Shown one piece after another: positions 7,861 to 55,503 of a stretch of 61,491 nucleotides of DNA (positions are counted from its first letter, which is position 1; each line of letters begins with the position of its first letter). This stretch comes from Actinomycetes bacterium. GTDB taxonomy: Bacteria > Actinomycetota > CALGFH01. Below the pieces are notes generated by a model that saw only the letters and a program-made list of their open reading frames with translations, made no database searches and was not told the DNA's origin. The DNA is taken from assembly GCA_036000965.1 (NCBI GenBank), contig DASYUT010000175.1, positions 1 to 61,491 of the forward strand, in the 5' to 3' direction. A program made the translations under genes and the position numbers.

Positions 7861-7895
7861 CCTCACGTCCCTGCGGCCCCAGCCGTCTACGAGGC

Positions 7896-7959
7896 GGGAC
7901 ACCAGGACAACGGGACACCAGGACAACGGGACACAAGGACAACGGGACACAAGGACAAG
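7896..7959 (+). repeat. Four 16-bp tandem repeats before the MGMT start
   Basis: Four consecutive units of GGGACACCAGGACAAC (the last two carry CACAAGG) run up to the ribosome-binding site AAGGAG at 7957-7962. They form the leader of the downstream methyltransferase gene. Confidence 0.85.
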
Positions 7960-12063: not shown

Positions 12064-12107
12064 TGCGTAAAGGCGTTCATCAGGCTGCGTAAAGGCGTTC
12101 ATCAGGC
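12064..12107. repeat. Two 22-bp tandem repeats
   Basis: TGCGTAAAGGCGTTCATCAGGC occurs as two directly adjacent perfect copies (12064-12085 and 12086-12107) in the 545-bp gene-poor stretch between the broken methyltransferase and the SDR gene. No function is visible. Confidence 0.9.
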
Positions 12108-18912: not shown

Positions 18913-18980
18913 CCGACGGATTGGCCCGACCGACGGATTGGCCCCACCCACGCACTGGCCCCCACCCACGCACTGGCTCC
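18913..18980. repeat. Short direct repeats between divergent genes
   Basis: Two copies of CCGACGGATTGGCCC and two of CACCCACGCACTGGC lie in the 309-bp gap between the sugar dehydrogenase and the ECF sigma gene. The gap has no coding sequence. A TACCGT element at 19104-19109, 8 bases before the sigma ATG, could give a leaderless transcript. Confidence 0.7.
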
Positions 18981-36414: not shown

Positions 36415-36568
36415 TGCTGTCCGGGAGGTGGGAGCCTCACCACAGCGCGCCAGAGCGCCTGGTGGGCGATGTGATTCCGGGCAGCGCTGGTTCGGGAGGT
36501 CGGACCTCACCGCACTGGTTCGGGAGGTCGGACCTCACCGCAGCGCGCGCCAGAGCGCCTGGTGGGCG
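36415..36568. repeat. Nested direct repeats at the end of a glycosyltransferase gene
   Basis: A 28-bp unit (CTGGTTCGGGAGGTCGGACC...) is tandemly repeated at 36487-36514 and 36515-36542, with a diverged third copy at about 36415-36444. A 24-bp piece of the glycosyltransferase 3' coding end (36545-36568) is copied at 36445-36468. Each 28-bp unit contains the palindrome GAGGTC-G-GACCTC, and the second one includes the stop codon of the gene. Confidence 0.85.
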
Positions 36569-45295: not shown

Positions 45296-46471
45296 ATGGG
45301 CGACCAAAGCGGCCTGCAGCTTCTCGTGCAGCCCCGCCTCGGCGCGCTGGAGCGCGCCTGGGACGCCCTGGTCGAGCGCCTGCCCCTGCCCTCTCCGTTC
45401 CTGCGCTCGTGGTGGCTCGAGCAGACCGCGGGCGGCGTCCCCCGCTTCCTGCTGGTCATGGACGGGGATGAGCTGGCCGGCGGGCTCGCTCTGCAAGAGG
45501 AGCGGTGGCTCGGCGTGCCGCGCCTGCGCGTGATGGGCGCGGGCGCCCTCTGCCCCGACCACCTCGACGTCGTCGCGCTCCCCGGCCGCGAGCAGGACGT
45601 GCTCGCGGCGCTGGCCGCCTGGCTGCGCCGGCCCGGGTCGCGGGTGCTGGACCTCGAGGGCGTGGCCGGCGGCTCCCGCCTCGCGGCGGCGCTTCCCGGG
45701 CGGGTGCGCCGCGAGGTCGTCGCCGTGGCCCCATGGGCGCCTCTCGCGGCAGACCCCGGCGACTGGCTGCGCACCCGCCCGCGGGGCTTCCGCGCCACGC
45801 TCCGGAAGGCCACCCGGCGGCTCGAGCAGGAGGCGGCCGAGCACCGCGTGCTCCGAGACGGCTCGGTCGACGCCGCGCTCGCCACCCTGCGGCGCCTGCA
45901 CGGCGCGCAGTGGGGTGAGCGGTCCAACTTCCTGGCCGCCTACGACCAGTTCGCGGCGGCCAGCCGGGCCGGGGCGTCGCGCGGCGAGGTCGTGCTCCAC
46001 GAGCTCGCCGCGGGCGAGGTGGTCGTCGCCGCGGTGAGCTGCTTCGAACTCGCCGGCCGGGTGAGCCTTTACCAGAGCGGACGGCTGTCCGCGCACCGCT
46101 GGCGCAACGCGGCGACCGTCCTGCTCGCCAAGGTGGTCGAGGACGCCTGCCGGCACGGGCTGACCGAGGTCGACCTTCTCCGGGGCGACGAGCCGTACAA
46201 GGCGAACTTCGCCTCGGCCGCGCGGGAGATCGTGCGGCTCCAGGCCGCGCACGGGTCGGCCGGGCGCCTGGCACTGGCCGCGCTGGTCCTCGGCACCCGG
46301 GTGCGGACGCTGGCGGGGCGCCTCCTCCGGCAGGTCCGCACGCGGCTACGTCACCTCCGCACGCGGCTACGTCACCGGCGCGCGCTTCCTGCCCCGTTGG
46401 CCGCGGCGCAGCTGGTGCCGCAGGGCGTACGCGCGCATGGCGGTGACCTTGGCCCGGTCCACCAGCGGTGA
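45296..46471 (+). CDS. GNAT/FemAB-like acyltransferase (CelD type)
   Basis: 391 aa with the BioF2-like acetyltransferase fold seen in CelD and related EPS proteins. It shows PLPSPFLRSWWLEQTAGGVP, DHLDVVALPG, the central FRATLRKATRRLEQEA and WGERSNFLAAYDQFAAASRA, then VSLYQSGRLSAHRWRNAATV and GLTEVDLLRGDEPYKANFA. Such proteins move acyl groups onto sugars or lipids. The last 105 bp overlap the convergent cupin gene, and an in-frame 21-bp duplication doubles a 7-residue block (RTRLRHL). The C-terminal 35 residues may therefore be an extension past the original end. Confidence 0.78.
   Translation: MGDQSGLQLLVQPRLGALERAWDALVERLPLPSPFLRSWWLEQTAGGVPRFLLVMDGDELAGGLALQEERWLGVPRLRVMGAGALCPDHLDVVALPGREQDVLAALAAWLRRPGSRVLDLEGVAGGSRLAAALPGRVRREVVAVAPWAPLAADPGDWLRTRPRGFRATLRKATRRLEQEAAEHRVLRDGSVDAALATLRRLHGAQWGERSNFLAAYDQFAAASRAGASRGEVVLHELAAGEVVVAAVSCFELAGRVSLYQSGRLSAHRWRNAATVLLAKVVEDACRHGLTEVDLLRGDEPYKANFASAAREIVRLQAAHGSAGRLALAALVLGTRVRTLAGRLLRQVRTRLRHLRTRLRHRRALPAPLAAAQLVPQGVRAHGGDLGPVHQR
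46335..46376. repeat. 21-bp perfect tandem duplication shared by two convergent genes
   Basis: TCCGCACGCGGCTACGTCACC is present twice in a row. On the plus strand it adds seven codons to the acyltransferase; on the minus strand it lies at the end of the cupin gene and includes its stop codon. Confidence 0.9.
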
Positions 46472-48261: not shown

Positions 48262-48966
48262 TCATGGCGCGCCTGCTGGGGCGGGTGGCCAGGGGTCCAT
48301 CAAGCTGTCCCAGAACATCAGCTCATAGGACTGCAGCAGCCGGGCGGCATGCCGTGCCTGCGCTGGCGGGTCGCCCGCGGCCAGCCCGGCCTGGACCACG
48401 GCCAAGGCATGTTCCCGGAAGCCGGGTGCAGGCGTGGCGAAGAAGTCGAAGAAGGCCGTCGCCTCCGGCCCGGCGTCGTGCTGCCCGGCGAGCGCGGCCG
48501 AGACACGCCCGCAGTTCTCACCCCACGCGGCCAGGTTGGCCAGGAACGCCACCGCCACGTCGGTGGCTGACCCGTTCAACGCCAGCCACGCCACGAAGGC
48601 GGTGTACGCCTGGCCCCGCGCGCTTGGCTCCCGGTCGCCCAGGCTGGCCGGGTCCAGGCCGAGCCAGCGAGCGAACCCGGCCAGGTGCTCGAGCGCCGTC
48701 CCCTCCCCCTGGGCGAGCCCGAGGAACAGGTCGCCTGCAGGCGCTGCGGGGAAGCGCGCGGCCAGGAACGCGAAGCTGCGCCGGTCGCTGCCGATGATCG
48801 ACTGCTGTTCGGCCGCGAGATCGGCCAGCCGGTCACGCGCCACTCTGCCCTCGGCCAGTGCGGTCAGGAACGGATGACCGCGCACGGCGCGCTCGACCGG
48901 CTCGAGCTCCGCTTGCACGTCGGCGAGCAGGTCGGCGGCCGTAGGGTGGGCGGAAGCCTCCGGCAT
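48262..48966 (-). CDS. tenA: TenA/PqqC-family protein, probable thiamin-salvage enzyme
   Basis: 234-aa all-helical protein of the TenA/THI-4/PQQC superfamily (HPFLTALAEGRVARDRLADL, AAEQQSIIGSDRRSFAFLAA, ALEHLAGFARWLGLDP, WGENCGRVSAALAG, FRDHA-like FREHALAVVQAGL, ending SYELMFWDSLMDPWP). TenA hydrolyses aminopyrimidines so that the HMP moiety can be reused for thiamin. The family signature is divergent, and the best argument for TenA is the TPP-riboswitch-like leader just upstream. ATG 48966 has AAGGAGG directly before it; a longer start would run through the riboswitch. Confidence 0.72.
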   Translation of the reverse strand: MPEASAHPTAADLLADVQAELEPVERAVRGHPFLTALAEGRVARDRLADLAAEQQSIIGSDRRSFAFLAARFPAAPAGDLFLGLAQGEGTALEHLAGFARWLGLDPASLGDREPSARGQAYTAFVAWLALNGSATDVAVAFLANLAAWGENCGRVSAALAGQHDAGPEATAFFDFFATPAPGFREHALAVVQAGLAAGDPPAQARHAARLLQSYELMFWDSLMDPWPPAPAGAP

Positions 48967-48970
48967 CGTG

Positions 48971-49080
48971 CCTCCTTCGCTGGGATGCACCACGTCAGCT
49001 GGGATGCACCACGTCAGGTCCGGCGGGTGGGCTCCAGCTGACACCCTCTCAGCCCTGGCACGCGGACTTCCCGGTTGCTG
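48971..49080 (-). ncRNA. Probable TPP riboswitch with duplicated P4/P5 arm
   Basis: On the minus strand the leader contains the conserved THI-element pieces in order: CGGG (49073-49070, P2), GGGCTGAGA (ending 49047), the P2 partner CACCCG, GGACCTGA (ending 49014), then GTGG...CCCAGCGAAGG. The last segment runs into AAGGAGG, the ribosome-binding site of the TenA gene, so ligand binding would mask translation. The 19-bp unit TGACGTGGTGCATCCCAGC is present twice in tandem (48979-48997, 48998-49016), enlarging the pyrophosphate-sensing arm. The loop sequence differs from the usual consensus. Confidence 0.65.
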
Positions 49081-49113
49081 GCTGTCAGGAGCCTTTGAGA
49101 TCTCCCCGGGCGC

Positions 49114-49157
49114 GGTCATGAGAGCCTCCTTGCCGGCTCCGGGAGGTTCTCATGACC
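49114..49157. repeat. 16-bp inverted repeat upstream of the riboswitch
   Basis: GGTCATGAGAGCCTCC (49114-49129) and GGAGGTTCTCATGACC (49142-49157) pair over 16 bp with one G-T wobble and a 12-base loop. No gene covers it once the TenA start is placed at 48966. It could be a terminator for transcripts entering from either side or a protein-binding site. Confidence 0.7.
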
Positions 49158-49215
49158 GGCGAAGCTGAGGCAGCCTACACGCCCCGTGCGGCCTGCCTGC
49201 GCACGTAGCGACGCG

Positions 49216-49312
49216 TCGTGGCGCCACCTCCGCGTGGCCACCGGAGGACGACCCAGGTCGTGGCGCCACCTTCGCATGGACACCGGAAATGGACACCGGA
49301 GGACGACCCAGG
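49216..49312. repeat. Imperfect 42/55-bp direct repeat
   Basis: TCGTGGCGCCACC... ending GGACGACCCAGG occurs at 49216-49257 and again at 49258-49312, where an internal 13-base part (GGACACCGGAAAT / GGACACCGGAGG) is itself doubled. It lies in the 510-bp gene-free stretch between the TenA and fruR genes. Confidence 0.8.
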
Positions 49313-55467: not shown

Positions 55468-55503
55468 AACCAAGGGGAGGGAGCAAACCAAGGGGAGGGA
55501 GCA
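55468..55503 (+). repeat. Duplicated ribosome-binding region before adk
   Basis: AACCAAGGGGAGGGAGCA is present as two perfect adjacent 18-bp copies. The second copy provides GGAGG just before the ATG at 55508, so the gene has two candidate ribosome-binding sites in tandem. Confidence 0.88.

Follow-up and report, generated by a model that had tools for sequence, protein, structure and literature searches.

Two questions are raised by the stretch of DNA upstream of a TenA-family gene in this actinobacterial genome: whether it descends from a TPP riboswitch, and, if so, whether a perfect 19-bp duplication within it has left a working, enlarged aptamer or a switch in decay, the alternatives between which the first-pass annotation of this DNA did not choose. 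The leader, CAGCCAGCAACCGGGAAGTCCGCGTGCCAGGGCTGAGAGGGTGTCAGCTGGAGCCCACCCGCCGGACCTGACGTGGTGCATCCCAGCTGACGTGGTGCATCCCAGCGAAGGAGGCACGATG, lies in the window (the whole stretch that was analysed, 61,491 nt) between a divergent DeoR-family gene (plus strand, from 49477) and the TenA-family gene (minus strand, 48966-48262). Directly 5′ of the latter (ATG at 48966-48964), the landmarks of a THI element occur on the minus strand in the expected order, each motif at the place that the first-pass annotation had given it; the extent proposed there, 48971-49080, was about right, the match running from 49083 to about 48964. The features are given below, where R1 denotes a covariance model built from an alignment (A1) of 29 strong TPP elements collected from the phylum (taken to be Actinomycetota on the kinship and gene content of the genomes sampled).

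48964-49083, minus strand: TPP-riboswitch-like (THI-element) leader, comprising aptamer core, ribosome-binding site and start codon (R1, 30.7 bits over 48955-49083; RF00059, 15.1 bits over 48975-49083).
49070-49073, minus strand: 5′ strand of P2, CGGG, with its partner CCCG at 49027-49024 (sequence; aligned to P2 by R1).
49052-49067, minus strand: P3 hairpin GUCC...GGGC, pairing 49067-49064 with 49055-49052 and including one G-U pair (sequence; R1 alignment).
49047-49052, minus strand: CUGAGA, the pyrimidine-sensing element, intact (R1 alignment; sequence).
49029-49046, minus strand: P3a hairpin GGG...CCC, which includes GUCAGCUGG at 49042-49034 (R1 alignment; complementarity).
49029-49024, minus strand: CACCCG (sequence).
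49014-49019, minus strand: ACCUGA, 5′ strand of P4 and J4/5 (R1 alignment).
48999-49017, minus strand: first copy of the 19-bp unit CTGACGTGGTGCATCCCAG (repeat search).
48980-48998, minus strand: second copy of CTGACGTGGTGCATCCCAG, identical to the first (repeat search).
48994-49002, minus strand: CCAGCUGAC, new at the junction of the two copies and a perfect complement of GUCAGCUGG in P3a (fold and complementarity).
48971-48980, minus strand: GCGAAGGAGG, with GCG of the 3′ side of J4/5 followed by AAGG, which is both the 3′ strand of P4 and part of the ribosome-binding site AAGGAGG (sequence; R1 alignment).
48980-48974, minus strand: GCGAAGG (sequence).
48975-48971, minus strand: GGAGG (sequence).
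48262-48966, minus strand: TenA-family gene, 234 aa, YExxFW motif kept (Pfam TENA_THI-4, 49.9 bits).

Neither a sigma-70-like promoter nor an intrinsic terminator was found in the leader, leaving a transcription-termination platform unsupported. The reading frame of TenA is open through the leader from 49119, and an in-frame N-terminal extension was rejected, orthologues starting near 48966. A search of the rest of the genome for similar leader DNA yielded a single 41-nt match, which lies outside the aptamer. A short distance 5′ of the aptamer, at 49113-49158, is a 17-bp inverted repeat (arms 94% complementary and 12 nt apart), and the rest of the genome gave no further copy of it. Two diverged direct-repeat families (31 nt at a spacing of 42, and 23 nt at a spacing of 55) occupy 49215-49312, between this palindrome and the DeoR-family gene.

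The gene itself, scanned for families in the frame that starts at 48957 (residue 4), encodes a protein 41-59% identical over the alignment to five orthologues; no solved structure matching it by sequence was found. A search through genus, family, order and class gave three genomes, including the source, and the other two had no tenA gene. The leaders of orthologous tenA genes, named by the first-pass annotation as a place to look for the same element, gave a divided answer at these large distances: no TPP element was found near the gene in four of the five orthologues (L006, L007, L009 and L010), but the fifth (L008, from a Chloroflexi metagenome-assembled genome) belongs to a TPP-led operon, where it stands after cytX and before a thiaminase-II-type TenA. 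The source genome has its own TPP-led cytX locus and a second TenA-family match, and no match to ThiC in a 99% complete assembly, which together suggest that pyrimidine is salvaged rather than synthesised de novo; with an assembly of that completeness, the bacterium probably relies on salvage. One TGA was counted within the matched stretch of this second TenA-family match (C109). The leader thus lies upstream of a thiamine-salvage gene, as is usual for TPP riboswitches.

Rfam RF00059 had been proposed as the test of membership of the TPP family, and the native form, on which it was run, fell below its threshold. A scan of the window at gathering cut-offs gave no match. RF00059 scored the leader at 15.1 bits, below its gathering cut-off of 54.3, and because this corresponds to E = 7.4 over the whole genome, in which a higher score (20.3 bits) falls in sequence that reads like a lipoyl synthase gene, RF00059 alone would not settle the matter. 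Nor is the gathering score a necessary feature, since the lowest-scoring TPP elements of thiM-thiE-thiC operons reach only 33-37 bits with the same model. With the better-fitting phylum model, by contrast, the match was clear. R1 gave the leader 30.7 bits in the window (E = 1.1e-6; runner-up 8.5 bits) and placed it third in the 6.47-Mb genome (E = 1.1e-4), after two textbook TPP elements, those of cytX at 81.9 bits and thiO at 70.6 bits, and well ahead of the best chance-like match at 19.2, these E-values being rough. Elements outside the training set scored 27.7 to 76.5 bits with R1, and 30.7 bits is at the low end of genuine TPP elements. The weakest of them, L095 of genome G039, is a very divergent TPP-like leader with an odd P4/P5 region, upstream of an operon whose genes, named from their translations, are thiM-thiE-thiD; it may likewise be a decaying TPP element, or a variant one.

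The composition of the leader points the same way. Twenty-two of the 25 columns invariant across A1 are kept (CUGAGA, ACCUG, GCG and AGG among them) and three are lost; one of the invariant positions, a G, is either missing or shifted by an additional A that follows P2. A sequence-profile HMM gave 17.7 bits, and none of 500 mononucleotide shuffles exceeded 1.5. All residues that contact the ligand directly are retained, which suggests selection until recently. As in members of RF00059, P2, P3, CUGAGA, P3a, ACCUGA, P5, GCG and AGG follow one another in order and with the appropriate spacing, and the element runs straight into the ribosome-binding site of a thiamine gene. Within the pyrophosphate-binding arm, ACCUGA (49019-49014) and GCG (48980-48978) are both present, 19 nt further apart than usual. 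Unlike those members, the leader has a perfect 19-bp tandem duplication before P5, a loop, UGCAUC, that lacks the U-turn uridine, no clear P1, a score under the gathering threshold and a predicted fold that is not aptamer-like. Four, four, three and three pairs are possible in P2, P3, P4 and P5, respectively, but they are not favoured energetically, and the P1 switching helix is unrecognisable, three of its four pairs being non-standard in the R1 alignment. RsmW, microRNA and other weak Rfam matches were below their own cut-offs and were taken as chance. On sequence and model scores taken together, the leader is very probably a divergent member of the TPP riboswitch family, and the origin first proposed for it stands.

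The duplication is perfect. CTGACGTGGTGCATCCCAG is present twice, head to tail, at 49017-48999 and 48998-48980 (2 x 19 bp over 49017-48980, 19/19 identity), before the ribosome-binding site, just as the first-pass annotation had described. The annotation took the unit to include the P4/P5 arm, and this holds for P5 and for the 3′ part of the ACCTGA element, which are what was copied, but not for the whole arm, the 3′ strand of P4 (AAGG) being single-copy. In the R1 alignment the 5′ strand of P5 falls in the first copy and the 3′ strand in the second, and the net effect is equivalent to 19 nt inserted between ACCUGA and P5. By sequence-profile HMM (the model, in place of RF00059, in which forms of the leader were compared), the native two-unit leader scored 17.7 bits, a one-unit form 24.7 and a form with no unit 10.0, while 19-nt deletions elsewhere in the leader mostly left the score unchanged or lowered it. 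The duplication would therefore appear to disturb an ancestor that matched the family better. Among the open-access papers searched, none was found to describe a TPP riboswitch whose P5 is duplicated.

A second departure from the family is in the loop. In TPP aptamers L5 forms a UNR U-turn (PMC2258182), and the adenines of this loop contact P3 (PMC6414600). In the leader L5 is UGCAUC, with G at position 2, so that the U-turn uridine is lost and no UNR U-turn is present. Among the resolved loops of the other TPP elements compared (two from the same genome, further Actinomycetota elements and the Chloroflexi L008), position 2 was U in nearly all, C in two and never G, in agreement with the earlier remark that this loop is not the usual one. 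The C at loop position 6 and the P5 strand GUGG have precedent, since both occur in TPP element L116. Both copies of the unit carry the loop UGCAUC and a G-G mismatch at the base of P5, and because the copies are identical these changes are most likely older than the duplication, a point absent from the first-pass annotation. Homogenisation could also give identical copies, and the order of the two events is a reading of the repeat sequences.

Folding predictions give a picture of a leader that does not readily adopt the aptamer. Forcing the aptamer helices costs the native leader 15.5 kcal/mol (ViennaRNA), the highest penalty of 73 elements including the leader, in energies that ignore ligand and tertiary contacts and are a poor guide to riboswitch function. 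The mean probability of the aptamer pairs is 0.01 in the native leader, and with one unit the penalty falls to 11.1 kcal/mol. This measure also puts some genuine TPP elements (for example L008 and L100) at about 15 kcal/mol, which may reflect mispairing of their inserts by the automatic alignment. Where the copies meet, CCAGCUGAC matches the complement of GUCAGCUGG of P3a at all 9 positions, and the resulting helix belongs to the minimum-energy structure predicted for the 161-nt leader but not to that predicted for a shorter, 129-nt piece. With one unit, the longest complement to P3a is 5 bp, and in a post-hoc test at least 9 bp was reached by 0.6% of shuffled units. On these predictions, the duplication gave rise to a helix of 9 bp in competition with P3a.

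The reading preferred here, with a probability of roughly 0.55, is that the TenA leader is a divergent TPP aptamer on the ribosome-binding site, which lost the U-turn uridine of its loop and then acquired the 19-bp duplication, and which is now a weakened or dead switch. We infer its mode of action and history to be as follows. In the ancestral arrangement the TPP-bound aptamer would hide AAGG (the 3′ strand of P4 and part of AAGGAGG), lowering translation of TenA. First, L5 would have lost its U-turn uridine; the 19-bp tandem duplication would then have added a second P5-like segment between ACCUGA and P5, and with it the 9-bp helix in competition with P3a. At present TPP would most likely have little or no effect on the expression of tenA. 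Impairment is favoured because the U-turn uridine and three of the 25 invariant positions are lost, P1 is not clear and the folding penalty is the highest of the 73; the duplication probably weakened or broke the switch. Against this, L095 scores below the leader (27.7 bits), so that a low score alone does not amount to decay. A parallel is offered by the predicted TPP aptamers of diatom THIC genes, in which resemblance does not guarantee a response to thiamine (PMC9544697). These unresponsive elements have CUGAGA, the pyrimidine-binding motif of TPP aptamers, and the overall architecture in common with the leader (PMC9544697), but they are eukaryotic, lie in the 3′UTR, are conserved across a lineage and are not duplicated (PMC9544697).

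The alternative that survives best is a working, naturally enlarged aptamer that still represses tenA, in which the first copy forms an extra small hairpin and the second, with GCGAAGG, completes the pyrophosphate-binding arm. Such enlargement has natural counterparts at exactly the same place. The unpaired stretch from ACCUGA to P5 is 10-13 nt in nearly all of the 73 elements and 24-67 nt in five others than the leader, namely L098-L101, a single family preceding thiM-thiE-thiC operons, and L008, which precedes cytX and whose operon holds the orthologous tenA. Like the leader, these carry extra sequence between ACCUGA and P5, and an enlarged P4/P5 region is therefore natural among TPP elements; none of the five is a tandem copy of P5. 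The five inserts are hairpin-like, and the elements score below the RF00059 cut-off. That every direct ligand-contact residue remains in the leader also speaks for retained function. The natural inserts, however, are unrelated sequences resembling stable hairpins, with P5 and L5 canonical or nearly so, whereas each copy in the leader can form only a 3-bp stem (UGG/CCA), and forcing the two unit hairpins costs 27 kcal/mol. With the U-turn uridine lost and the junction pairing with P3a, a working enlarged aptamer is possible but rather unlikely, and of the two alternatives first proposed the evidence leans, on these predictions, towards an impaired or decaying switch, the genuine elements with extra hairpins still leaving room for function.

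Two further accounts give the new helix a function. In one, slippage would in a single event have given an ordinary TPP riboswitch a new expression platform: the resulting variant would work, with an additional P5-like hairpin and with P3a and the duplication junction joined in a switch helix of 9 bp; this seems improbable. Slightly less probable still is an altered switch in which the GUCAGCUGG/CCAGCUGAC helix is the ligand-free state, or in which the ligand has shifted towards free pyrimidine released by TenA. The presence of the helix in the best predicted fold of the 161-nt leader, and its rarity among shuffled units, would fit such a switch, as would an intact pyrimidine-sensing half beside a changed pyrophosphate-side arm; but the helix test was post-hoc and is without comparative support, and the C and G of GCG, which contact the phosphate directly, are unchanged.

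Short perfect duplications are themselves common in this genome. Nine of 14-45 bp were found in the 61-kb window, and 20 more in 205 kb of other contigs of the same genome. In all, 29 in 266 kb of the source genome compare with 6 in 215 kb of other Actinomycetota (conditional binomial p = 6e-4), counts that come from a non-random sample of contigs and include repeats inside genes. Further perfect tandem duplications in the window are at 7895-7934, 12064-12107, 18942-18977, 36487-36542, 46335-46376 and 55468-55503, among others. Since such duplications are a background feature of the genome, the one in the leader needs no special cause. Their number, together with the low RF00059 score and the better one at the lipoyl synthase-like gene, might suggest that the resemblance to a riboswitch is fortuitous and the direct repeat a protein-binding site or mere slippage, a view already largely refuted by the R1, HMM and invariant-column results, and very improbable for a match with a genome-wide R1 E-value of 1.1e-4 that precedes a thiamine-salvage gene with position, strand and spacing all as they should be; nor can a direct repeat account for the CUGAGA, P2 and P3 landmarks upstream of it.

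With the leader read as a divergent and probably impaired TPP aptamer, three points follow for the family. Searches with curated models miss elements such as this diverged TenA leader. The elements of the thiM-thiE-thiC operons and of cytX indicate that TPP riboswitches tolerate extra sequence between P4 and P5. The leader, whose gene has an orthologue in a TPP-led operon, is a modest example of riboswitch change, and a concrete case of such change by slippage, in which a recent, perfect duplication in the ligand-binding arm most likely came after an earlier change in the loop.
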